Shown here in pieces: positions 25,993-37,676 of a stretch of DNA of 64,000 nucleotides. The DNA lies in assembly GCA_018263115.1 (NCBI GenBank), contig JADFDC010000004.1, forward strand, positions 1 through 64,000, read 5' to 3'. This DNA is from Thiobacillus sp. (GTDB lineage: Bacteria; Pseudomonadota; Gammaproteobacteria; Burkholderiales; Thiobacillaceae). The notes beneath the pieces were generated by a model that saw nothing but the letters and a program-made list of their open reading frames with translations, had not been told where the DNA came from and did no database searches. Positions within the stretch are counted from its first letter, which is position 1. Each line of letters begins with the position of its first letter. The translations under genes and the position numbers were made by a program.

Positions 25993-26513
25993 GTTGTTTT
26001 CTCCAGCTTGTCGAGAAGCGGCTCGAATTTTTTCTTCCAGACGGCTTCATCAATCGGGCCAATATGCTTCATGCGGATGATGCCGGCCTGGTCGATGACA
26101 AAAGTTTCGGGTGTGCCCGTCACGCCAAAATCAATACCGACACGGCCATCAAGATCATCGACCGTCACGATATATGGGCTGCCCTTCTGATTCAGCAAGG
26201 CTTCAGCTTCGCGATCCTTGTCTTTCCAGTTGAGGCCGTATATCGAAATCCCTGATTGAGCCAGTTGCATCAGGAACGGGTGTTCCGCGCGGCAGGAAAC
26301 ACACCACGGTGCCCAGATATTGAGCAGCCAGACCTTGCCCTTGGCCTGTTCCGGCGAGAAGGTTGTTCCCGGCTGGCCGATCACGGGCAGGACAAATTTT
26401 GGAGCGGGTTTGCCGATGAAGGGTGAGGGCACTTCACGTGGATTGAGATACAAACCAACATACAGAAAGCCAGCCAGAACTGCGAAGAGAATGAGTGGTA
26501 TCCAGCGTTTCAT
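25989..26513 (-). CDS. ccmG: Thiol:disulfide interchange protein CcmG (DsbE)
   Basis: A 174-residue membrane-anchored thioredoxin-like protein. An N-terminal anchor (about residues 5-22) is followed by the thioredoxin fold with active site WCVSC (Cys71 and Cys74) and GVTGTPETFVID, which contains the cis-Pro. It supplies reducing equivalents to the apocytochrome/CcmH couple. The active-site sequence differs from the usual WCxPC, having Ser in place of Pro. Overlaps of 4 bp with both ccmH and ccmF mark a tight operon. Confidence 0.95.
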   Translation of the reverse strand: MKRWIPLILFAVLAGFLYVGLYLNPREVPSPFIGKPAPKFVLPVIGQPGTTFSPEQAKGKVWLLNIWAPWCVSCRAEHPFLMQLAQSGISIYGLNWKDKDREAEALLNQKGSPYIVTVDDLDGRVGIDFGVTGTPETFVIDQAGIIRMKHIGPIDEAVWKKKFEPLLDKLEKTT

Positions 26514-28489
26514 GCGGTCGCACCTTTAGCAGCAAGCTTGTCGGTAGCCTTTTCGGCCTTTCTGAGTGCGATGCGATAGCGCCGGTCAGAAGCAGCCAGC
26601 GCCCCGCCCAAAGCCAGAAGGAACGCACCGCCCCAGAGCCAGTCCACGAATGGCTTGTGGTAGACCTTGACCGTCCAGGCGCCATTTTCCAGTTGTTCAC
26701 CCAGCGAGACGTACACATCACGGAAAATTCCGTAATCGATGCCAGCTTCCGTCATCGGCATGCCCGAGGCATTGTAGATGCGCTTCTCGGGGTGCAGCAC
26801 AAACTTGCTGCCGGATTTTTCCACTTCAACCGTGCCGCGGCCTGCCACATAGTTGGGCCCGGGTACTTCTTTCACACCCTGGAAAGTGAAACGGTAGCCC
26901 GCCAGTTCGACATGGTCGCCGACATTCATGCGCACATCACGTTCGGACTGGAAGTTTGAAACCACCGTTGCGCCGATTACTCCTACGGCCAGGCCGGCGT
27001 GGGCGATCTGCATGCCCCAATAGCCGCGCGGCAGGCTGGACAGTTTTTGCATCAGACTGCCCTGGACATTCTTCAGCCGCTCGGCAAAACCGATCAGGAT
27101 GGTAAACAGAATCCACAGCGCCAGGAACAGTCCCAGTGTGGCCATCAGATTCATGCCGCCTGTCGTGAACGGCAGGATGACTGCAACAATCAAGGCCACG
27201 GCGAAGGCCCACTTCAGCCGGCTCACCATGTCCGGCAGGCTGGCCTGTTTCCAGCGCGCGAGCGGGCCAATTCCTGTCAGGAACAGAACGGGCGAAATCA
27301 ACGGAATGAACACGGCGTTGAAGTAAGGGGGCCCGACTGAAATCTTGCCGAGTCCCAGGGCATCCATGAACAGCGGGTAAAGGGTACCCAACAGTACGGA
27401 GCCAAGTGCCGCAAGCAGCAGCACGTTATTGCCCAGCAGCAGCGCCTCGCGCGAAAACCAGCTGAATGCGCCGCCGGTCATGAGACGCGGCGCGCGCCAT
27501 GCATACAACGCCAGCGAGCCGCCGATGACAACACCCAGAAAGGACAGGATGAATACGCCGCGGCCTGGGTCGGTGGCGAAGGCGTGTACCGAGGACAGCA
27601 CCCCGGAGCGCACAAGGAAGGTGCCCAGCAGACTGAGTGAGAAAGCGGTAATGGCCAGCAACACTGTCCAGCTTTTGAACGCGCCGCGCTTTTCGGTGAC
27701 GGCTAGCGAGTGGATCAGCGCAGTACCTGCCAACCAGGGCATGAAGGATGCATTTTCGGTCGGGTCCCAGAACCACCAGCCGCCCCAGCCCAGTTCGTAA
27801 TAAGCCCACCAGCTGCCCAGCGCGGTGCCCATGGTCAGGAACATCCACGCTACGGTTGTCCAGGGGCGTGACCAGCGCGCCCATGCGACATCCAGCTTTC
27901 CGGACAGCAGCGCGGCAATGGCGAAGGCAAACGCCACTGAAAATCCGACATAGCCCATGTACAGCATGGGCGGATGAATCACCATGCCCATGTCCTGCAA
28001 CAGCGGGTTCAAATCGGAACCGTCCGGCGGCATCGGGATCAGCCGCAGGAAGGGGTTGGAGGTGGCCAGCATGAATGCAAGAAAGCCCACGCTGATCAAG
28101 CCCATGACGCCAATGACGCGGGACGCCATGTCTTCGGGCAAGTGACGGGAAAACACGGTTACGGCCACGGTCCAGAAGGAAAGTATCAAGGTCCACAACA
28201 GCAAGGAGCCTTCGTGCGAACCCCAAGTGGCGGTGAAACGATAAATTTCAGGCAGTTGCGAGAAAGAGTTTCTGGCAACGTTTTCTACGCTGAAATCGTT
28301 GTTGAGGAACGACCAGGCGAGACAGCCAAAGGCAAAGGCTACAAAAACGAACTGGCCCTGCGCGGCCGGTCGGGCGACGCCCATCAGCGTGGCATTGCCG
28401 CGATGCGCGCCAATGAGCGGCAGAATGCCCTGCGTCAATGCCAGCAATAGCGCAACGACAAGAGCGAAATGGCCTAATTCTGGAATCAT
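26510..28489 (-). CDS. ccmF: Heme lyase CcmF
   Basis: A 659-residue polytopic membrane protein that attaches heme to apocytochromes. It contains the WWD heme-handling domain (GWGGWWFWDPTENASFMPW) flanked by conserved histidines, about 14-15 hydrophobic helices, and a periplasmic domain near the C-terminus (about 530-620). It acts with CcmH and CcmI. An 85-base gap to ccmE contains a small GCCTC-GAGGC hairpin at 28511-28525. The cluster has a single ccmF and no separate NrfE-type lyase, which matters for the CxxCK heme of the octaheme reductase. Confidence 0.97.
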   Translation of the reverse strand: MIPELGHFALVVALLLALTQGILPLIGAHRGNATLMGVARPAAQGQFVFVAFAFGCLAWSFLNNDFSVENVARNSFSQLPEIYRFTATWGSHEGSLLLWTLILSFWTVAVTVFSRHLPEDMASRVIGVMGLISVGFLAFMLATSNPFLRLIPMPPDGSDLNPLLQDMGMVIHPPMLYMGYVGFSVAFAFAIAALLSGKLDVAWARWSRPWTTVAWMFLTMGTALGSWWAYYELGWGGWWFWDPTENASFMPWLAGTALIHSLAVTEKRGAFKSWTVLLAITAFSLSLLGTFLVRSGVLSSVHAFATDPGRGVFILSFLGVVIGGSLALYAWRAPRLMTGGAFSWFSREALLLGNNVLLLAALGSVLLGTLYPLFMDALGLGKISVGPPYFNAVFIPLISPVLFLTGIGPLARWKQASLPDMVSRLKWAFAVALIVAVILPFTTGGMNLMATLGLFLALWILFTILIGFAERLKNVQGSLMQKLSSLPRGYWGMQIAHAGLAVGVIGATVVSNFQSERDVRMNVGDHVELAGYRFTFQGVKEVPGPNYVAGRGTVEVEKSGSKFVLHPEKRIYNASGMPMTEAGIDYGIFRDVYVSLGEQLENGAWTVKVYHKPFVDWLWGGAFLLALGGALAASDRRYRIALRKAEKATDKLAAKGATA

Positions 28490-29202: not shown

Positions 29203-29937
29203 TCATTTTTCAACCAGCGCCTTGACCCAATCCGTGTTGCGTTCGCGCTCAAGTATCAAAGTTCTTACCCGGTAAAGCGCGACCGCGATGGTGTATAGCC
29301 ATGCCGCTATTGCCATCACCAGCATGCCAATCAGCATGATCTTTGCCATCGAGGGCGCCTTGGTCAGACTGACAGAAGCGCCTTGATGCAGCGTGTTCCA
29401 CCACTTTACCGAGAAGTAAATGATGGGTACGTTGATGGCCCCGACCAGTGTCAGGAGCGCGCCGGCACGGTCACCGCGCTGCGGGTCATCAATGGCGGCC
29501 CACAGCGCCATGATGCCTATGTACAGGAAAAGCAGGATAAGTTCCGAGGTCAATCGTGCATCCCATACCCACCATGCACCCCACATGGGTTTTCCCCAGA
29601 GTGCGCCCGTCCAGAGGGCGATGAAAGTGAACAGGGCACCAGTTGGGGCCAATGCCCGTGACATCATGAAGGAAAGCCGGGTTTTGAAAGCCAGCCCGAT
29701 CGCACCCCAGAATGCCATCACCAAATAGATGAACATGGACATCCAGGCGGCGGGAACATGGATGAAAATGATCCGGTACGCCTCGCCCTGCTGGAAATCC
29801 GTGGGCGCCATGAAAAAGCCGATGTATAGACCGATTACAGTGAGAATAACCGCGCTCCAGCCAAACCAGGGAATCAGTTTGCCGCTGAGCTGATAAAACG
29901 TTGCGGGCGATGCGTAGTAGTAAAGGTTGATGGCCAT
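29203..29937 (-). CDS. ccmC: Heme exporter protein CcmC
   Basis: A 244-residue protein with six transmembrane helices that loads heme onto CcmE. The WWD motif is clear (WGKPMWGAWWVWDARLT), and periplasmic histidines flank it (FIHVPAAW and WWNTLHQG). It stops 15 bases before ccmD and starts two bases after ccmB. Confidence 0.97.
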   Translation of the reverse strand: MAINLYYYASPATFYQLSGKLIPWFGWSAVILTVIGLYIGFFMAPTDFQQGEAYRIIFIHVPAAWMSMFIYLVMAFWGAIGLAFKTRLSFMMSRALAPTGALFTFIALWTGALWGKPMWGAWWVWDARLTSELILLFLYIGIMALWAAIDDPQRGDRAGALLTLVGAINVPIIYFSVKWWNTLHQGASVSLTKAPSMAKIMLIGMLVMAIAAWLYTIAVALYRVRTLILERERNTDWVKALVEK

Positions 29938-29938
29938 A

Positions 29939-30607
29939 TTATTCGATCGATACTTTAAGCGCGGCAGCCGCGATCCAGGGCGCCACCAGTAACGTTAACA
30001 CCAGGATGGCGCCCAGGAGTGAAAGATGGGATTCCGCCCCGGTTCCGGCCATGGCGGCATCCACCGCACCGGCGCCGAAGATCAGCACCGGTACATAAAG
30101 CGGCAGGATCAACAGGGTCAAGAGAACACCGCTGCCGCGAAGTCCTAGGGTCAACGCTGCGCCCACGCTGCCCAGCAGGGAAAGGATGGGCGTGCCGATC
30201 AGCAGCGAAAGCATCAGGACCGCAATGGCTTCCGCCGGCAACGCGAACTGGATACCCAGGATGGGGCTGATGATCAGCAGGGGAATGCCATATATCAGCC
30301 AGTGCGCGAGAGATTTTCCCAGCGCCAGCAATACCGGAGGCTGTGGGGTAAGCAGCATCTGTTCGAGTGATCCGTCGCGATAGTCTTCCGCCAGCAATCT
30401 TGGCAGGGACAACAGAGACGCCAGCAGCGCGGATACCCAGACTACACCGGGGCCGATCAATTTCAGCGTGACCGGGTCCGGGCCGATTCCCAGTGGAAAC
30501 ATGCTGGCGACCATGACAAAGAAAAATTGCGAAGTCAGCCAGTCGCCACGGCGCCGCGCGGCCAGCATGAGGTCCCGGCGAATAACAGTGAATAGAAAGC
30601 TTAGCAT
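29939..30607 (-). CDS. ccmB: Heme exporter ABC-type permease CcmB
   Basis: A 222-residue integral membrane protein with six hydrophobic helices. It partners with the CcmA ATPase and CcmC. Characteristic segments are LLSLPRLLAEDYRDGSLEQ and GTPILSLLGSVGAALTLGLR. Spacing to ccmA is 14 bases and to ccmC one base, so it belongs to the same transcript. Confidence 0.95.
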   Translation of the reverse strand: MLSFLFTVIRRDLMLAARRRGDWLTSQFFFVMVASMFPLGIGPDPVTLKLIGPGVVWVSALLASLLSLPRLLAEDYRDGSLEQMLLTPQPPVLLALGKSLAHWLIYGIPLLIISPILGIQFALPAEAIAVLMLSLLIGTPILSLLGSVGAALTLGLRGSGVLLTLLILPLYVPVLIFGAGAVDAAMAGTGAESHLSLLGAILVLTLLVAPWIAAAALKVSIE

Positions 30608-30621
30608 CGGACGTCATTGTC

Positions 30622-31284
30622 TCACGAAGCCAGGCTTGTTTGAGCGGGGCTGCCCACGTGCAAGGTGCGAATATTGCTGCCTTCAAGCGAGATCGGTTGA
30701 TGGGTGGTAAGCACCGCCATGCCGCCCCCATCGATATGCGCTTTCAGCAGGTTTTCCAGCAGCGCCACGCCGTGTACATCCAGGCCGGTCAGTGGTTCAT
30801 CCAGAATCCACAGCAGCGCATTCGAGCAGAGCAGGCTGGCCAGGGCGACCCTGCGACGCTGGCCAAAAGACAAAACCCTGCAAGGCAAATCCAGGCAGCG
30901 TCCCAGACCAAGCTGCACCAGTCTTTCTTCTGCCTGGGTTTCATTCAGGGTGCGTCCTGCCAGTTGCGAGGCAAGGCGCAAATTCTCGATCGGCGTCAGG
31001 TCATCCTTGATGCCATTCAAATGGCCGATATAAGCCATTTCGCGGTGATAGGTTTCACTTGTCTTGTCCAGCTTTACGCCGCGCCAGCGGACTTCGCCCT
31101 CCGCAGGCTGCGAAAGGCCGGTAAGCAGCCGCAACAGGCTGGTCTTGCCCTGGCCGTTGCCGCCCTGGATCAGCAGGGCTTCTCCGCCTTGCAAGGTGAA
31201 ATTCATGCCAGAGAAGAGTTCACGTTCGCCACGGGTGCAGCGGAGATCATGAAACGAAAGAGTGGCTACAGATTCGGACATCAT
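30622..31284 (-). CDS. ccmA: Heme exporter ATP-binding protein CcmA
   Basis: A 220-residue ABC ATPase with Walker A GGNGQGKTS (near residue 41), signature LSFGQRRRVALA and Walker B LWILDEPLTGLD. ATP hydrolysis by CcmAB drives release of holo-CcmE rather than heme transport itself. It is the first gene of the ccmABCDEFGHI operon; its promoter should lie in the repeat-rich gap 31285-31545. The start has two adjacent ATG codons. Confidence 0.95.
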   Translation of the reverse strand: MMSESVATLSFHDLRCTRGERELFSGMNFTLQGGEALLIQGGNGQGKTSLLRLLTGLSQPAEGEVRWRGVKLDKTSETYHREMAYIGHLNGIKDDLTPIENLRLASQLAGRTLNETQAEERLVQLGLGRCLDLPCRVLSFGQRRRVALASLLCSNALLWILDEPLTGLDVHGVALLENLLKAHIDGGGMAVLTTHQPISLEGSNIRTLHVGSPAQTSLAS

Positions 31285-31339
31285 TCAGGGCTTGTTTTGA
31301 ACAGGGGAGCATAACCAATCCGCCTGTTGAATCCAAGCA

Positions 31340-31381
31340 TTATTGAGGGGAAATTCAAGAACTTGAATTTCCCCTCAATAA
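31340..31381. repeat. Perfect 20-bp inverted repeat upstream of ccmA
   Basis: TTATTGAGGGGAAATTCAAG at 31340-31359 is perfectly complementary to 31362-31381, with only AA between the arms. It lies 56 bases upstream of ccmA and downstream of the octaheme gene terminator. It has no T-run suited to termination of either flanking gene, so an operator, a cruciform or a remnant of a small palindromic element are all possible. Confidence 0.85.
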
Positions 31382-31398
31382 ACCACCGAGCCTGAATT

Positions 31399-31493
31399 GT
31401 TATTGATCCGAAACACAGCTCGGCTTTCAAGGCGATAGGCAAGAGCCAGACGAACATTGATTTTTTCAAGTTCATTCGTTTCAGATCAATAAC
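31399..31493. repeat. Inverted repeat with 16-bp arms, 63-bp spacer
   Basis: GTTATTGATCCGAAAC (31399-31414) matches the reverse complement of GTTTCAGATCAATAAC (31478-31493) at 15 of 16 positions. The enclosed 63 bases contain an additional short palindrome (GAAC...GTTC at about 31452-31473). Together with the perfect repeat at 31340-31381 this fills most of the gap between the octaheme gene and ccmA. A 64-codon open frame crosses it but looks accidental. Confidence 0.75.
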
Positions 31494-31499
31494 GCAGAT

Positions 31500-31528
31500 A
31501 AAAAAAGGCCGGCTGATGAGGCCGGCCT
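31500..31528 (-). terminator. Rho-independent terminator of the fccAB-octaheme unit
   Basis: On the minus strand AGGCCGGC (31528-31521) pairs with GCCGGCCT (31513-31506) around a 7-base loop and is followed by a run of seven T residues (31506-31500). It lies 18 bases after the octaheme gene stop, so the ccm operon downstream is expected to have its own promoter. Confidence 0.9.
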
Positions 31529-31545
31529 GAAGGTTGCGGAGGAGA

Positions 31546-33315
31546 TTATTTAGCTGCTGGGGCCGCTGCTGGGGCTGCTGCGGGGGCGGCAGCAGGCGCC
31601 ATGGCGACCGGCTTCTTCATGTCGGCCAGGGCTTTCCTTAGCATGGCCACGCCATCCTTGGAGGCGGTGATCGACGTAGCCAGGGACTCGCGCGCATCAG
31701 CCGGGTTGTGGAAGCCGTCGGAGTTCTCGGCGGTCCACCATTCCCAGTACAGGTTGGCGTCATACTGCTTGTCATAGGCCTTCTCGATGATGTCCTTGGC
31801 CACACCAGCATCCTTGGCCTTGACGATCATGTCGATCAGCTGCGACAGCCAGAATTCCGCATCCGCCATCTTGCCGCGGGTGTAGTTCTGGATGGCGTCG
31901 ATGCTGTACTTGGCTTGCTGCTCGGTCCAGTCACCGTGGCAGGTCAGACAGGTCTCCTTGATATGCTCTTTCGGAGAGATCTGCTGGTGCGAAGTGTAAA
32001 TCTTGCTTTTTTCACCCTTGAGCTTGGGCATGTGGCAATGCTTGCACTCGACGCCGGCTTTTTCATGCTTGGAACCCCAGTAGGTTTCCATTTCCGGATG
32101 CTGGAGCTTCGGCAGCAAAGCACCCGTGGCGGCATGCTTGAAGTCGATGTACTTGTATTCCTTCAGCATGCGGTCCTTGTAGCCGAACACATTGGTCCAC
32201 TGGAACAGGTTGGTCCGACGGTCTGCCATGCCGACAGTGAACTTTCCGGGGACGACTTCCTGTGTGGTGTCATAGCCAGGGCCGCAGTTGTATTCCACGT
32301 GGCACTGGGCGCACATCAGGTTGGAGTCAGACTTGTTCAGCAGGCCAATGGCACGGAAGTCCTTGCCATCGCGCTGGAAGTTGACCTTGGTCATGGTGAT
32401 CTGCTTGCTCTTTTCCGGGTTCATCGGATAGGTGCCCAGCTTGCGGTCCACCACGGCTTCGATCAGGGCATCACGCACCACGCGCGGCTGGGTGCTGTGC
32501 GGATCATGGCACATGTAGCAGTTCAGCGGATGCTTCATGCCGCGCGCAAATTCAACCGGCTTGGACGTGCGAGCCCACTTGGCTGCGGGATCCGGGTCAC
32601 CCATGTATTTCCAGTCCAGGATGTGGTCCTGTGTCTTGCAGTTCATGCACACCGGGTTGACGGCGGTCACGGTCTGTTTCATGAAAACCTTCTGGTCGGA
32701 AGACTCGGGTTCGCGGTCGTAAAGCACGTTCCAGGGATCGGCAGCCGCTTCCTTGGCCTTGCTGACGTGCCTCCAGTCCTTGAACTGGAAGCGGCCGCCA
32801 AAGCCGCGGTCCACCGCCCACTGGTCAACCAGCATGAAGGCGTGGGAACGGGGTTCGCCGTGTTCAAAGGTGAAGCCGTAGCCCTCCATGATCTTGTCGA
32901 ACAGCGGTGAGCGACCCTTGAAGGTGGCTTTTTCCAGGCGTGCTGGCGCGTTATAGTCCATTTTCACAAGGGATTCGTACTGATCCTTGTGGCAGGCGCC
33001 ACAGGCCCGGTGATCCTTGATGGTGGCGGGCTTGATTTCCTTCTTCTTGTCCTTGCTGGCGGCCAGGTGTTCCGCGGTGCCGGTATGGCAGCTTACGCAG
33101 TTGACCTTGGCGTGCTTGCCGCTGGCATGGAATTCCTCGATGTTGTCATGACAGGCATAACATTTCTTCGAGTCCACCGGTTGCTTGTCCAGCATGATCG
33201 GTGCCAAACCGGATGAGGCTGCAGCCGGCTTGTCGACAGCCGAGGCCGGAAAGGCCAGAGATAGCAGGGTAAGCGCCACCCCACCCAGCCAACTGTGTTT
33301 AATTATCTTCATCAT
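31546..33315 (-). CDS. Octaheme c-type cytochrome nitrite reductase (ONR/TvNiR-like)
   Basis: Exported cytochrome of about 589 residues with eight heme sites: CYACH 52, CVSCH 73, CGACH 105, CMNCK 223, CYMCH 266, CAQCH 335, CKHCH 424, CLTCH 456. The lysine-ligated fourth site is the catalytic-heme arrangement of octaheme nitrite reductases such as Thioalkalivibrio TvNiR, and the last five sites align in order with NrfA, including CAQCHVEY and CKHCHMPK. The family reduces nitrite to ammonium with six electrons and can act on hydroxylamine and sulfite. Signal peptide ends near SAFPASA-type cleavage; the C-terminus is an Ala/Pro repeat tail. Tandem ATGs at 33315 and 33312 follow AAGGAGG. It is 57 bases downstream of fccB. 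Confidence 0.9.
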   Translation of the reverse strand: MMKIIKHSWLGGVALTLLSLAFPASAVDKPAAASSGLAPIMLDKQPVDSKKCYACHDNIEEFHASGKHAKVNCVSCHTGTAEHLAASKDKKKEIKPATIKDHRACGACHKDQYESLVKMDYNAPARLEKATFKGRSPLFDKIMEGYGFTFEHGEPRSHAFMLVDQWAVDRGFGGRFQFKDWRHVSKAKEAAADPWNVLYDREPESSDQKVFMKQTVTAVNPVCMNCKTQDHILDWKYMGDPDPAAKWARTSKPVEFARGMKHPLNCYMCHDPHSTQPRVVRDALIEAVVDRKLGTYPMNPEKSKQITMTKVNFQRDGKDFRAIGLLNKSDSNLMCAQCHVEYNCGPGYDTTQEVVPGKFTVGMADRRTNLFQWTNVFGYKDRMLKEYKYIDFKHAATGALLPKLQHPEMETYWGSKHEKAGVECKHCHMPKLKGEKSKIYTSHQQISPKEHIKETCLTCHGDWTEQQAKYSIDAIQNYTRGKMADAEFWLSQLIDMIVKAKDAGVAKDIIEKAYDKQYDANLYWEWWTAENSDGFHNPADARESLATSITASKDGVAMLRKALADMKKPVAMAPAAAPAAAPAAAPAAK

Positions 33316-33372
33316 TACCCTCCTTGAGCACGTGTTGTTAACACACTTCAAAAACACACTTCAAAAAATCAA

Positions 33373-34755
33373 TCAGGAAAAGGCATCCGCCATCACATTG
33401 CGCAGCCAGCCTACGGCATACTCGGCTTCCAGCTTGCGGTAGGCCGCTGGCACTGGTGACTTGTCAGGCATGGTCATCATGGAAACGCCGCTGCCTTCCT
33501 TGATGTACTTGAACGTGCCGCCTTCCACGCGATACAGGTGCGCAACCGAGATACCGTAGTCGTCACCCACCACGCTGTAACAGGTGTTGGCGTAATACGG
33601 CTGCGGCACCGCCTGACCATTGACCTTGGCGACAATGGCCGCGGCCGCCACCTTGGCCTGGGTCATGGCGATATGTGCCGACTTGGGCATGTCGAATGCG
33701 GCGTTGGGGTTGCCATACAGCGGCATTTCACCCGCCACGCACGAATCGCCCACGACATAGATGCTTGGGTCCACAGCAGAAGCCATGGTCATTGGCTCCA
33801 CCTTGCACCAGCCCTTCTCGAAGTTGTTGCCCGAGGCACCAGTGAGGCCCGCGTCGGCGGCGATCTTGCCGGCCTTGTGCGGCGGAATGATGTTCAGCAC
33901 ATCGGCCTTGACGTCAACAAAGTCGGATGACACGGTTTTGGTCTTGGCGTCCAGCTTGGTGATGGTGCCACCTTCGGCGCCCTTGACCCATTCGATCATG
34001 CCGTTGGTGCCCATGCCTTCTTTCTCCCAGCCGTACATCTTGGCCCAGGCCTGGTTGAACAGGCCCTTCTTGGAGTGTGAATCGTTGGCGTCCAGGATGA
34101 TGACCTTGGACTTGGCCTTTCCATGGTGCTTGAAATAGTTGGCCACCAGCGAGGCGCGCTCGTAGGGCCCGGGCGGGCAGCGGAACGGACCCTTGGGCAC
34201 GACGATGACGAACTTGCCGCCGTCGGGCATGGCTTCCAGTTGCTTTTTAAGTAACAGTGTCTGGGGTCCGGCCTTGTAGGCATGGGGAATGTCCTCGATC
34301 ATCGATTCGTTGTAGCCCTCGATGCCGGTGTAGTGGAAGTCGATGCCGGGCGATACGACCAGAGCATCGTAGGGCAGGGTCTTGCCTCCCTTTGTAGTCA
34401 CGGTTTTCTTGGCGCGATCAACTCCTACGACAAAGTCGTGCAGCACGTTGATGCCACGCTTCTTCAGGCCGTCGTAGCCGATTTCCAGGGTTTTGATGTC
34501 ACGATGGCCGACGATGACTTCGTTTGAAAGCGGGCAGGAAGTGTAGACCTTGTTGGGTTCGATCAGGGTGACATCGATGCTCGCATCGCCCAGCTTGACG
34601 TACTTGGCAGCGGTGGCGCCGGCGTAGCCGCCGCCGATGACGACGACTTTGGCTTTTGCCGCACCGGCACGCGCCAATGAGGGAATACCCAGGACAGGAA
34701 CGGAACTGGCGGCAGCGGCTAGCTTGATAAATTCGCGACGATTGATTTGGCTCAT
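33373..34755 (-). CDS. fccB: Sulfide dehydrogenase flavoprotein chain FccB
   Basis: A 460-residue periplasmic FAD protein that oxidises sulfide to sulfur/polysulfide and passes electrons to FccA. A twin-arginine signal (INRREFIKLAAAA) leads the protein. The FAD-binding Rossmann motif is VVVIGGGYAGATAA. The covalent FAD cysteine is expected at Cys74 (YTSCPLSNEV), and the redox disulfide at Cys193 (RCPPGPYERAS) and Cys392 (NTCYS), all as in flavocytochrome c. The start at 34755 is preceded by AAGGAGA. It lies 10 bases after fccA, and the octaheme gene follows in the same direction. Confidence 0.95.
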   Translation of the reverse strand: MSQINRREFIKLAAAASSVPVLGIPSLARAGAAKAKVVVIGGGYAGATAAKYVKLGDASIDVTLIEPNKVYTSCPLSNEVIVGHRDIKTLEIGYDGLKKRGINVLHDFVVGVDRAKKTVTTKGGKTLPYDALVVSPGIDFHYTGIEGYNESMIEDIPHAYKAGPQTLLLKKQLEAMPDGGKFVIVVPKGPFRCPPGPYERASLVANYFKHHGKAKSKVIILDANDSHSKKGLFNQAWAKMYGWEKEGMGTNGMIEWVKGAEGGTITKLDAKTKTVSSDFVDVKADVLNIIPPHKAGKIAADAGLTGASGNNFEKGWCKVEPMTMASAVDPSIYVVGDSCVAGEMPLYGNPNAAFDMPKSAHIAMTQAKVAAAAIVAKVNGQAVPQPYYANTCYSVVGDDYGISVAHLYRVEGGTFKYIKEGSGVSMMTMPDKSPVPAAYRKLEAEYAVGWLRNVMADAFS

Positions 34756-34765
34756 GATGGTCTCC

Positions 34766-35341
34766 TTATTTGTTCTGGCTGGCGTAAAACTCGGCAACGG
34801 CTTTTATTTCTTCGTCGCTGAGTTTCTTGGCGGCCTTGACCATTTGCTTGTTGGGCATGTTGAACGCGTCGTCGCGATATTTGAGCGCCTCCAGTTGCAG
34901 GTATTGGGACCACTGGCCATGCAGTGAAGGGGTATCGGCATCTTCGGACTTGCCGGTGTCGCCATGGCAACCCGCGCATTTTTCCGTGACCTTCTTGCCG
35001 AGTTTCACCAGTTTGGCGTCGGTCTTTTGCTTGACAGGCATCCAGGGCAATTTTGAATAGTAAGCAGCCAGTGCGGCAATTTCCTCGTCGGAGTAGCCGC
35101 TGATCAGGCGGGTCATGTTGGCGGACGGGCGCTTGCCGGTCTTCCATTCCATCATGATGTTCTTGAGGTAACCTTCTGGCAGTCCGGCAATGGAGGGCAT
35201 GGACTCCCCCGCGCTGACGCCCCCGGTTCCGTGGCAGTTGTTACAGGTGTTGGCCAGACCGGCTACGTTGAGTTCGGCGTGGGCGCTGCTCGCAAGCAGC
35301 AAACCGCTGGCTAGCGCGGAAAGCAATAAGGCTTTTTGCAT
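34766..35341 (-). CDS. fccA: Sulfide dehydrogenase diheme cytochrome chain FccA
   Basis: A 191-residue periplasmic cytochrome with a Sec signal (cleavage after ASSAHA, about residue 22) and two class I cytochrome c domains: CNNCH at 33-37 and CAGCH at 122-126, each followed by Met-containing ligand regions (SANMTRL and FNMPNK). It is the electron acceptor subunit for FccB and passes electrons to soluble cytochromes. The start at 35341 is preceded by GGAGGAGA. As first gene of the unit it is the target of the FNR-like box at 35435-35448. Confidence 0.93.
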   Translation of the reverse strand: MQKALLLSALASGLLLASSAHAELNVAGLANTCNNCHGTGGVSAGESMPSIAGLPEGYLKNIMMEWKTGKRPSANMTRLISGYSDEEIAALAAYYSKLPWMPVKQKTDAKLVKLGKKVTEKCAGCHGDTGKSEDADTPSLHGQWSQYLQLEALKYRDDAFNMPNKQMVKAAKKLSDEEIKAVAEFYASQNK

Positions 35342-35406
35342 GGTCTCCTCCAAATTTATGTCGAGTTAGTTTCTTAGGGTTGTTTAGAATACTTCTTGGT
35401 CCATGC

Positions 35407-35412
35407 ATACTA
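35407..35412 (-). promoter_or_regulatory. Possible -10 element for fccA
   Basis: TAGTAT on the minus strand matches TATAAT at 4 of 6 positions. Taken as a -10, it would put the transcription start at about 35400, which places the FNR-like box centre at -41.5, the classic class II activator position. No separate -35 is needed in that arrangement. Confidence 0.45.
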
Positions 35413-35434
35413 GACAGAACAAAAGGGTTATTCC

Positions 35435-35448
35435 TTGACGCAAATCAA
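35435..35448. promoter_or_regulatory. FNR/ANR-type binding site between fccA and rlmB
   Basis: TTGACGCAAATCAA matches the FNR consensus TTGAT-N4-ATCAA at 9 of 10 specified bases. It lies in the 166-base divergent region, 94 bases upstream of fccA and 60 upstream of rlmB. Relative to the putative fccA start it is centred at -41.5. An oxygen- or redox-responsive CRP/FNR-family regulator is inferred; none is encoded in the window. Confidence 0.65.
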
Positions 35449-35507
35449 TTATTTTTTGTTTTTTTCAGATATCCATATCAACTAGATCCGTATATTAGAG
35501 AACAACG

Positions 35508-36242
35508 ATGAAGCCTCGCCTGATGTACGGATTCCATGCCGTCAAAGCACGCCTGCGTGCCGCGCCGAATACAGTCATTGAAGTCTGGGTGGACGAAGAC
35601 CGGCAGGATGCGCGCATGCGGGATTTCCTTTCGGTGTTGGCAAATGCCGGGCTCGCCGCCCACATGGCGGACGGCGGAAGGCTGGACAAGATGGTTGGCG
35701 GTGCGCGCCATCAGGGGGTCGTTGCAAAAGTCGAGCCCGTTACTATGGCGCGTACCCTGGCTGAAGTCATTGAAGCCGTCGAAGGCGCGCCGTTGATCAT
35801 CGTGCTGGATGGCGTGACGGATCCCCATAACCTGGGGGCGGTGTTGCGCTCGGCGGATGCTTTTGGCGCCCATGCGGTCGTTGCGCCAAAGGATCGCGCA
35901 GTAGGCTTGAATTCGACTGTGGAAAAGGTTGCCAGCGGCGCAGCCGAAACGGTTCCCTATTTGATGGTGACTAATCTTGCGCGCAGTCTGGATGAGCTCA
36001 AGGAGCTTCGAGTGTGGACAGTTGCCATGGAGGCCGATGCGCCCAGGTCCCTTGATAAAACCGACGCGAAAGGCGGCATTGCCTGGGTATTGGGTGCCGA
36101 AGGGGCGGGCTTGAGACAGCTGACGCGCAAGACATGCGATGAGGCCGCGCGGATTCCTATTGGCGGCGCAGTCGAAAGTCTGAACGTTTCGGTTTCGGCC
36201 GCGATCTGCCTGTACGAAACGGCGAGACAGAGGGTTGGATGA
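35508..36242 (+). CDS. rlmB: 23S rRNA (guanosine(2251)-2'-O)-methyltransferase RlmB
   Basis: A 244-residue SpoU/TrmH-family methyltransferase. N-terminal L30e-like RNA-binding domain (YGFHAVKARLR), then the trefoil-knot SAM domain with motif 1 VLDGVTDPHNLGAVLRSADAFGAH-type segment, motif 2 LGAEGAGLRQL and motif 3 IPIGGAVESLNVSVS. In the usual beta-proteobacterial order rnr precedes rlmB; here about 11 kb of cytochrome genes separates the two. A TATATT at 35491-35496 could be its -10. A 7-bp stem-loop (36247-36268) lies just past the stop. Confidence 0.95.
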   Translation: MKPRLMYGFHAVKARLRAAPNTVIEVWVDEDRQDARMRDFLSVLANAGLAAHMADGGRLDKMVGGARHQGVVAKVEPVTMARTLAEVIEAVEGAPLIIVLDGVTDPHNLGAVLRSADAFGAHAVVAPKDRAVGLNSTVEKVASGAAETVPYLMVTNLARSLDELKELRVWTVAMEADAPRSLDKTDAKGGIAWVLGAEGAGLRQLTRKTCDEAARIPIGGAVESLNVSVSAAICLYETARQRVG

Positions 36243-36339
36243 TCAGGGCCGCACCTTTTGATGCGGCCGAGGATGTTGCTGCAGTCTGCCTGTACCAAGG
36301 GGCATTGGGTAAACAACAAGCTATAGGGAGTGGGCGGTC

Positions 36340-36885
36340 ATGAATGAATACGATGCTCGCGATATTCTGGTTGCGTCAGAAGTCATTGCCGATGCGCAAA
36401 CTGTTCAAACGTGCCTGGACAGACTGGGAAGGGATATCTCGGGCGTGCTGCATGACCGGTTTCCACTGGTGTTGCCCGTGATGGGCGGCGCTATCGTGTT
36501 TGCGGGCCAGCTGTTGCCCCGCCTAGATTTTCCGCTTGAGTTCGATTATCTCCATGTAACACGTTATCGCGGCAAGACCCAGGGCGGCGCCATCGAGTGG
36601 CGCGTGCTGCCGGGAAAATCAGTTTCTGGCCGGTCGGTGCTTGTGCTGGACGACATTCTGGATGAAGGCGAAACCCTGTATGCCATCCGGCAGAAGTTGC
36701 AGGAGATGGGGGCGGCACGCATTTATACCGCCGTGCTCGCAGACAAGGCCATCGAGAAATCCAAGCCGGTCAAGGCGGATTTTGTCGGTCTGACCGTTCC
36801 CAACCGCTATGTTTTTGGTTGCGGCATGGACGCGTATGGCCTGTGGCGGAATCTGCCGGAAATACGCGCGTTGCAGGCAGAATAG
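36340..36885 (+). CDS. Hypoxanthine-guanine phosphoribosyltransferase
   Basis: A 181-residue type I phosphoribosyltransferase. The PRPP-binding motif VLVLDDILDEGETL is near residues 104-117; the flexible loop region VTRYRGKTQGG and the purine-binding C-terminal VGLTVPNRYVFGCGMD are visible. It salvages hypoxanthine and guanine to IMP and GMP. It precedes a methylthio-nucleoside phosphorylase by 29 bases; the phosphorylase product hypoxanthine would be its substrate. The gene could be called hpt. Confidence 0.92.
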   Translation: MNEYDARDILVASEVIADAQTVQTCLDRLGRDISGVLHDRFPLVLPVMGGAIVFAGQLLPRLDFPLEFDYLHVTRYRGKTQGGAIEWRVLPGKSVSGRSVLVLDDILDEGETLYAIRQKLQEMGAARIYTAVLADKAIEKSKPVKADFVGLTVPNRYVFGCGMDAYGLWRNLPEIRALQAE

Positions 36886-36914
36886 AAGCAGAATAGAAAT
36901 AACTGGGAAAAAAC

Positions 36915-37676
36915 ATGCTGGGAATTATCGGGGGCACCGGCCTTACCAAACTGGCCAATCTTGAAATCACCCACCGTCAGGTGGCGCGCACGCCCTATGG
37001 TGAACCTTCAGGCGCGTTGACCTTCGGCAGGCTGTGTGGCGAAGAAATCATTTTTCTGGCGCGCCATGGTTATGGCCATACCATCCCGCCTCATGAAGTG
37101 AACTATCGCGCCAATCTGTGGGCGCTCAAGGAACACGCCGTGGATCGTATCGTGTCCATTGCCACAGTCGGGGGCATCAACCCGGCATTGCCTGCGGGCA
37201 GCATGGTCGTACCCGACCAGATCATCGACTACACCTGGGGCCGGATTGGTACCTTCGCCATCTCTGGCGAAAAGCAGGTCACGCATCTGGATTTTACCGA
37301 GCCCTACTGCGAAGCCATGCGCCGAGACATATTGCGCGCGGCTTCACTGAAGAATCTGGCGGTGCGTGATGGGGGCGTGTATGCGGTATCCCAGGGGCCG
37401 CGTCTTGAAACCGCCGCCGAGATCAACCGCATGGAACGGGACGGCGCCGACATGGTCGGCATGACCGGCATGCCGGAAGCCTATCTCGCGCGTGAAATCG
37501 AGCTTTGCTATGCCGCGATCGGCGTGGTGGTCAACGATGCGGCAGGTCGTGGCGCATCAAAAAACGGCATCCATGAAACCGATATCCAGCGCGGGCTTGA
37601 AGACCTGATGGGCCGGGTCAGGGTGCTGCTGGAAGAACTGGTGGTGCTGGCACATCCGGAATCCTGTCCAAAATAG
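36915..37676 (+). CDS. S-methyl-5'-thioinosine (or thioadenosine) phosphorylase
   Basis: A 253-residue PNP/MTAP-family enzyme. Phosphate-binding elements GGTGLT, ARHGYGHTIPPHEVNYRAN and the TVGGINP loop are present, with GADMVGMTGMPEA as the ribose/base pocket. The base-specificity segment reads VVNDAAGRG, having Asn where 6-amino-specific MTAP enzymes carry Asp, which favours 6-oxopurine substrates such as methylthioinosine (the Pseudomonas PA3004 type). Linkage to a hypoxanthine phosphoribosyltransferase fits this reading. The pathway removes methylthio-nucleosides made by polyamine and homoserine-lactone synthesis. Confidence 0.87.
   Translation: MLGIIGGTGLTKLANLEITHRQVARTPYGEPSGALTFGRLCGEEIIFLARHGYGHTIPPHEVNYRANLWALKEHAVDRIVSIATVGGINPALPAGSMVVPDQIIDYTWGRIGTFAISGEKQVTHLDFTEPYCEAMRRDILRAASLKNLAVRDGGVYAVSQGPRLETAAEINRMERDGADMVGMTGMPEAYLAREIELCYAAIGVVVNDAAGRGASKNGIHETDIQRGLEDLMGRVRVLLEELVVLAHPESCPK

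Follow-up and report, generated by a model that had tools for sequence, protein, structure and literature searches.

Relatives of Thiobacillus are generally seen as denitrifiers driven by sulfide, from which nitrogen is lost as gas. A close known system is that of Desulfurivibrio alkaliphilus, in which sulfide oxidation is combined with the ammonification of nitrate, and a paper on Trichlorobacter ammonificans is said to report a new octaheme module. The described enzymes with which the present locus can be compared are the flavocytochrome c sulfide dehydrogenase (FCSD) of Allochromatium and Thermochromatium, the octaheme nitrite reductase (ONR) of Thioalkalivibrio (TvNiR) and pentaheme NrfA, which receives electrons from quinol through partner proteins, according to passages of PMC12285233. 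Here, we describe a 64,000-nucleotide stretch of a Thiobacillus sp. contig (JADFDC010000004.1, positions 1 to 64,000; hereafter the window), in which the genes for the two FCSD subunits, fccA and fccB, are followed by onr, the gene for an octaheme c-type cytochrome (Table 1). We judge it probable, from the gene identities and a comparison with related genomes, that the three genes encode a circuit for sulfide-fed nitrite ammonification in the periplasm.

The product of onr has its best match in the Protein Data Bank (PDB) in the eight-heme nitrite reductase 2zo5 (717 bits) and contains a Pfam Cytochrom_C552 domain (178 bits). It is 59% identical to the Thioalkalivibrio ONR over 508 aligned residues, and shares with it eight heme motifs, the fourth of which is CMNCK, a CxxCK motif aligned with K188. 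All six of the residues checked are identical (R131, K188, Y303, C305, Q360 and H361, including the Tyr-x-Cys pair and the aligned Arg, Gln and His); these are positions that we take to be catalytic or ligand residues in TvNiR. The protein groups with TvNiR-type enzymes and not outside the nitrite reductases, and is expected to be a nitrite-to-ammonia reductase of the TvNiR kind. It resembles NrfA in its homologous heme core and in the reaction expected of it, but it has eight hemes rather than five, scores only 101.7 and 77.4 bits against NCBIfam cut-offs of 595 and 692.5, and none of the three genes encodes a quinol partner. An identity as a hydroxylamine oxidoreductase (HAO) was rejected because no HAO chain was present among its 22 PDB matches (E up to 0.001); octaheme tetrathionate reductase and MccA, further candidates, were also set aside, neither being named among these matches and the CxxCK motif and TvNiR residues being present. 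The C-terminus (window positions 31549-31600) is an Ala/Pro repeat tail lying outside the part aligned with TvNiR. The difference from TvNiR concerns the setting, as onr in the window sits directly behind fccAB; a paper on the Thioalkalivibrio enzymes (PMC5433712) nowhere uses the terms operon, gene cluster or flavocytochrome.

FccB contains the Pfam domains FCSD_central (153 bits) and FCSD-flav_bind, aligns length-wise with solved flavin subunits (best PDB chain 3vrd_B, 387 bits) and retains the three flavocytochrome c cysteines in alignment with 3vrd and 1fcd, one presumably attaching FAD and two forming a redox-active pair. Its leader reads as Tat-type (RRxFIK), and it is encoded beside a c-type cytochrome partner, as expected for an FCSD. 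This partner, FccA, has the heme subunit 3vrd_A as its best PDB chain (90 bits), carries the Pfam domains Cytochrome_CBB3 and Cytochrom_C, and by reading has two CxxCH motifs and an expected signal peptide; an alternative TTG start is possible at 35353. The pair is thus like the Allochromatium and Thermochromatium enzymes in its three key cysteines and its diheme c-type subunit, and is expected to oxidise sulfide. The three genes are all on the minus strand, with intergenic spacings of 10 and 57 bases for the open reading frame (ORF) starts given in Table 1, and the hairpin after onr folds with -19 kcal/mol (z -4.1). The gene identities, the operon-like layout, the terminator and the FNR-type box given in a preliminary description of the locus, made from its letters, are all borne out by these data, as is its assignment of the octaheme protein to the nitrite reductases. 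Over positions 30000-37000 as a whole, terminator-like sites are not enriched (5, against a shuffle mean of 7.9), and promoter-like sites number 1 against a shuffle mean of 3.1, such that no promoter is demonstrated there.

Table 1. Features of the fccAB-onr locus and its surroundings (window positions)
Feature	Position	Strand	Basis
FNR/DNR-type palindrome upstream of fccA	35435-35448	-	9/10 consensus bases
fccA, diheme c-type subunit of flavocytochrome c sulfide dehydrogenase	34766-35341	-	ORF, 3vrd_A, Pfam
fccB, flavin subunit of flavocytochrome c sulfide dehydrogenase	33373-34755	-	Pfam, 3vrd_B
onr, octaheme c-type nitrite reductase, TvNiR kind (predicted)	31546-33315	-	2zo5 match, residues
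Intrinsic-terminator-like stem and T run, after onr	31506-31528	-	8 pairs, 7 G-C
ccmA-like, first of the downstream cytochrome c maturation genes	30622-31284	-	ORF, reading
ccmB-like	29939-30607	-	ORF, reading, synteny
ccmC-like	29203-29937	-	ORF, reading, synteny
ccmF, heme lyase	26510-28489	-	TIGR00353, 741 bits

The preliminary description had suggested a search for this neighbourhood in other genomes. Relatives of the ONR were sought in one genome per species and the best 80 of 233 were kept (L and G below denote loci and genomes); in 30 of these 80 best contigs, the gene immediately upstream of onr is fccB, in the same orientation. Trees were obtained by quick searches, with support from the Shimodaira-Hasegawa-like approximate likelihood ratio test (SH-aLRT) only. 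The ONR tree, built without three fragments (L076, L077 and L086), has 78 rows, of which 31 are linked to fccAB (window included), 37 are unlinked and 10 are cut off. The clade that holds the ONR of the window has 32 rows, that ONR included (SH-aLRT 99), and 29 of them are linked; two of the others are cut by contig ends, and the third, on a Gallionellaceae contig (L027), has fccAB 4.9 kb upstream. Outside this clade, linkage is also seen in a locus from the Gammaproteobacteria (L047) and in a distant betaproteobacterial locus (L055), and fccAB and onr lie back to back on a Thioalkalivibrio contig (L054). Eight heme motifs and CxxCK are present in all 31 linked ONR rows (a narrow arginine pattern missed two of the 31, in both of which the residue is present by inspection), and the three FCSD cysteines are kept in 31 of 31 FccB proteins linked to ONR or to the periplasmic nitrate reductase Nap (narrow patterns missed the first in nine and the third in one, all retaining the residue by inspection). 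ONR is patchy within the family, with 36 of 117 genomes containing it; this count excludes three weak multiheme matches from an initial 39 (G781, G836 and G854) and includes G770 and G771, the ONR of which is 51-53% identical, with no FccB seen beside it. The neighbours of ONR genes without fccAB include a nine-heme protein and a ccmF-like gene (L061) and NapA-like enzymes (L074, L079 and L084).

The FccB proteins linked to ONR differ from other FCSD flavin subunits in forming a separate clade, to which a second FccB of the host genome (L091) does not belong, and in standing before reductases. In a tree of 53 rows, rooted by midpoint only and omitting short or unmatched rows (including two of the other three host-genome FccB, that on C33 and the second on C44), one side holds 28 ONR-linked and three NapA-linked rows, together with six others, five with neither in reach and one near an ONR (support 94, or 98 without L055). 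The other side holds 14 rows with neither an ONR nor a NapA neighbour, among them L091. Of the two references, both on long branches, Thermochromatium falls on the ONR-linked side (support 89) and T. paradoxus on the other. FccA is diheme in 65 of the 66 loci with the ONR-linked kind of FccB in which FccA was found, and monoheme in 16 of 18 loci with the other kind, in a comparison in which the kinds were split by score and nine loci of the first kind were entered twice under two ids. Within the ONR-linked kind, the two trees conflict: the ONR data reject as a clade an FccB lineage comprising the window and eight other loci (approximately unbiased (AU) test, p-AU 1.0e-8; L026 and L029 added to the lineage by alignment score), and the grouping of L001, L011 and L013 seen with ONR is rejected by the FccB data (p-AU 2.0e-6), both groups having been named after the trees were seen. 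This conflict indicates that FccAB lineages have been exchanged while the slot before onr stayed filled, a pattern that is difficult to account for without a functional tie.

The FNR-type box upstream of fccA in the window (TTGACGCAAATCAA) is matched in score by 2% of shuffles of the letters of this upstream stretch, and the 64 kb window contains five other boxes of 9/10, so its weight comes mainly from its conservation in relatives. The consensus used is the one that we take to be FNR-type, and FNR, DNR and NNR sites cannot be told apart by it. Of the 27 ONR-linked loci tested, 23 have a box of at least 9/10 in the 220 bases before fccA (the upstream part is missing from the other three of the 30 linked loci, L012, L026 and L032; a rule was used to choose start codons), against a background of 0.10 boxes per kb over 30 loci, fccA boxes included. 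The exceptions are L055 and three loci in which nap genes lie directly upstream (L015, L017 and L046). Boxes of 9 or 10 precede the likely napD start in L179, L180 and L181, falling on the first base of the longest ORF in L180 and L181.

The nitrate reductase genes provide a further connection. A contiguous row of napD, A, G, H, B, fccA, fccB, onr and ccm genes lies on one strand in Thiobacillus sp. 65-29 (L015/L181) and in L017/L180; napH and napB adjoin fccAB-onr in L046, where the contig is cut, and napB lies about 4.7 kb before fccA in L013/L179. In this last locus, from one Thiobacillus, the region between nap and fccAB-onr (L179:9094-12262) encodes a multiheme cytochrome as well as an outer-membrane porin of the MtrB/PioB type, a hint that electrons may be exchanged across this membrane. 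Among the 117 family genomes, NapA is found in 35 of the 36 with ONR and in 22 of the 81 others (Fisher p 1.3e-13, in a test that ignores relatedness); with the curated cut-off, the figures are 32 of 36 and 17 of 81.

The host assembly (2.35 Mb, 96% complete) contains one ONR, two NapA, dsrA and four FccB-type genes above the Pfam cut-off, and a 9/10 FNR-type box precedes its nap genes (L184). NarG, the cd1 domain and the copper nitrite reductase NirK gave no match in this genome at the thresholds used, and the only search bearing on NrfA was the one for ONR. A 99% complete genome of the same genus (G596) has no ONR or NapA match, and has NarG and cd1-domain matches.

Under the reading that we prefer, FccB would oxidise sulfide to sulfane sulfur or polysulfide at a centre formed by its flavin and cysteines, and the two hemes of FccA would accept the electrons. 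These would then pass to ONR, either directly, a minority possibility in our estimation, or through a small c-type cytochrome, and ONR would reduce nitrite to ammonium with six electrons, the nitrite being supplied by Nap in the same compartment. An FNR/DNR-type regulator would induce the unit, presumably a single transcript of fccA, fccB and onr, without oxygen or with N-oxides, and the downstream Ccm proteins would mature the hemes. As FccAB and ONR are both expected to be soluble, the route itself would pump no protons, which suggests a role as a sink or in detoxification, removing sulfide and nitrite together. The coupling of sulfide oxidation to nitrite ammonification put forward in the preliminary description thus gains comparative support from the conserved linkage, the exchange of FccAB, the recurring FNR-type boxes and the co-occurring and sometimes adjoining nap genes, beyond the gene identities, the layout and the fact that no cd1 or copper nitrite reductase was found in the host; its electron transfer and ammonium formation are still inferred.

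Several observations weigh against this reading. As 37 of the 78 ONR rows have no linked fccAB, ONR cannot in general depend on FccAB. In L197, L198 and L203, fccA likewise has a box of 9/10 before it, and no N-oxide reductase was seen at these loci. NarG shows no association with ONR in the family (25 of 36 ONR genomes, 57 of 81 others), and a cd1-domain gene is commoner with ONR (27 of 36 against 36 of 81, p 0.003), so that most of the family's ONR genomes may be capable of denitrification as well; the host genome is an exception to this pattern. The Thioalkalivibrio enzyme also reduces sulfite and hydroxylamine, according to passages of PMC5433712. Lastly, FccAB of the same clade also occurs beside a molybdenum enzyme, a multiheme protein, ccm alone or nothing recognised.

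These other partners, found at loci picked from among the ranked FccB matches listed rather than at random, are varied. FccB of the same kind precedes napA-napB in L176-L178 (NCBIfam names for the nap genes of L177), with no napG or napH match nearby, napC not having been searched for; L211 was not counted with them, as its NapA-type match is weak and its FccB is of the other kind. An HAO-family octaheme protein lies between fccB and ccm in L208 and L212 (best PDB match for L208 4qo5, 158 bits, presumably the Ignicoccus octaheme cytochrome), and a perfect FNR-type box is present in both loci. The gene behind fccB encodes a molybdenum enzyme in L200 (PhsA/ArrA-like, below the NCBIfam cut-off) and, by reading, in L196, whereas in L199, L205, L210 and L224 its product has about 500 residues and five heme motifs; fccAB directly meets ccm in L216-L218. 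The best boxes score 9 and 8 in the two molybdenum-enzyme loci and 8 in two ccm-only loci, and no box of at least 9 was found in the three Nap-linked, two cytC514-linked and five nine-heme-linked loci tested. In L206, L207, L209, L220 and L221, a divergent nine-heme protein of about 650 residues, perhaps a quinone-linked cytochrome, adjoins fccAB; the L207 copy (L207:2256-4217) has a weak formate-dehydrogenase-gamma-like match below cut-off and no PDB match. No reductase was recognised beside fccAB in L190, L197, L198 and L222. Related multiheme proteins of about 500-620 residues, with weak family matches, recur behind fccAB or near nap (L199:5095-6563, L205, L210, L224, L177:2732-4276, L182:7471-9330 and L185:617-2173, those of L182 and L185 being in the host genome).

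To judge from these neighbourhoods, an electron-donor slot looks to have been filled differently in different lineages, and FccAB may be an interchangeable donor module rather than one specific to ONR. We propose, tentatively, that one diheme FccAB lineage serves as an interchangeable sulfide-oxidising front end for various periplasmic reductases to which it is genetically joined, forming soluble sulfide:acceptor oxidoreductases that would bypass the quinone pool, with ONR, the HAO-family octaheme protein, NapAB, the PhsA/ArrA-like molybdenum enzyme and other multiheme cytochromes as its possible partners. If this is true, species with nap-fccAB-onr would run the conversion of nitrite, and perhaps nitrate, to ammonium on sulfide within the periplasm.

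Soluble periplasmic cytochromes can exchange electrons freely, and the genes may therefore be co-regulated without being wired together, an explanation that we consider rather unlikely. FccAB would then feed the general cytochrome c pool, and ONR would separately detoxify nitrite, NO or hydroxylamine during nitrate respiration from the same pool, in keeping with the many ONR genes that lack fccAB and with the presence of NarG and a cd1-domain gene in most ONR genomes of the family. The linkage of 29 of 32 clade members and the exchange of FccAB before ONR nevertheless argue for something beyond shared regulation. It is very improbable that ONR acts mainly as a sulfite reductase, scavenging sulfite from sulfur oxidation: the host has dsrA and the Thioalkalivibrio ONR reduces sulfite in vitro (passages of PMC5433712), but turning sulfite into sulfide next to an enzyme that oxidises sulfide would amount to futile cycling, and both the FNR-type boxes and the association with NapA suggest N-oxides instead. 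At least as improbable is an adjacency due merely to the gathering of heme-rich proteins at ccm, given that, although many linked loci run on into ccm and fccAB lies directly beside it without onr in L216-L218, fccAB-onr occurs without adjoining ccm in L019, L020, L047 (ccmF 3 kb on) and L055.

Downstream of onr in the window, on the same strand, are genes reading as ccmABC, E, F, G, H and I (named by reading, with a family-model check for ccmF only), and related genes follow onr in many linked loci; the divergent gene upstream of fccA reads as a TrmH-type rRNA methyltransferase. In Escherichia coli, heme attachment at CxxCK depends on a dedicated lyase, NrfEFG. The host genome was searched for a separate heme lyase of the NrfE type, and only one ccmF/nrfE-type gene was seen (TIGR00353, single match); the single Ccm system may handle the CxxCK heme of ONR. 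Elsewhere, in ONR loci that lack fccAB (L041-L043, L053, L060-L064, L066, L067, L069, L070, L077, L086 and L090), a ccmF-like gene less similar to that of the window lies directly 3' of onr, and is possibly a lyase for this heme.

The enzymes are individually known. In searches of open-licence PubMed Central papers, no account was found of a conserved fccAB-onr operon, of FccAB lineages being exchanged or of a nap-fccAB-onr-ccm row; the operon is not described in passages of PMC10993476, PMC5433712, PMC12285233, PMC6449678 and PMC5728499. The same row in many related species suggests a single built-in sulfur-to-nitrogen circuit, as far as gene content can indicate. From the conserved fccAB-onr unit, which in some species has nap as its neighbour, we predict that part of this group can retain nitrogen as ammonium during sulfide removal, instead of or as well as losing it as gas. 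In the host genome, in which no cd1 or copper nitrite reductase was found, fccAB-onr may be the main route for nitrite, and in the 27 of 36 ONR genomes with a cd1-domain gene it would be a branch point. The operon thus offers a concrete gene marker for sulfide-driven ammonification and a testable claim concerning what feeds ONR.

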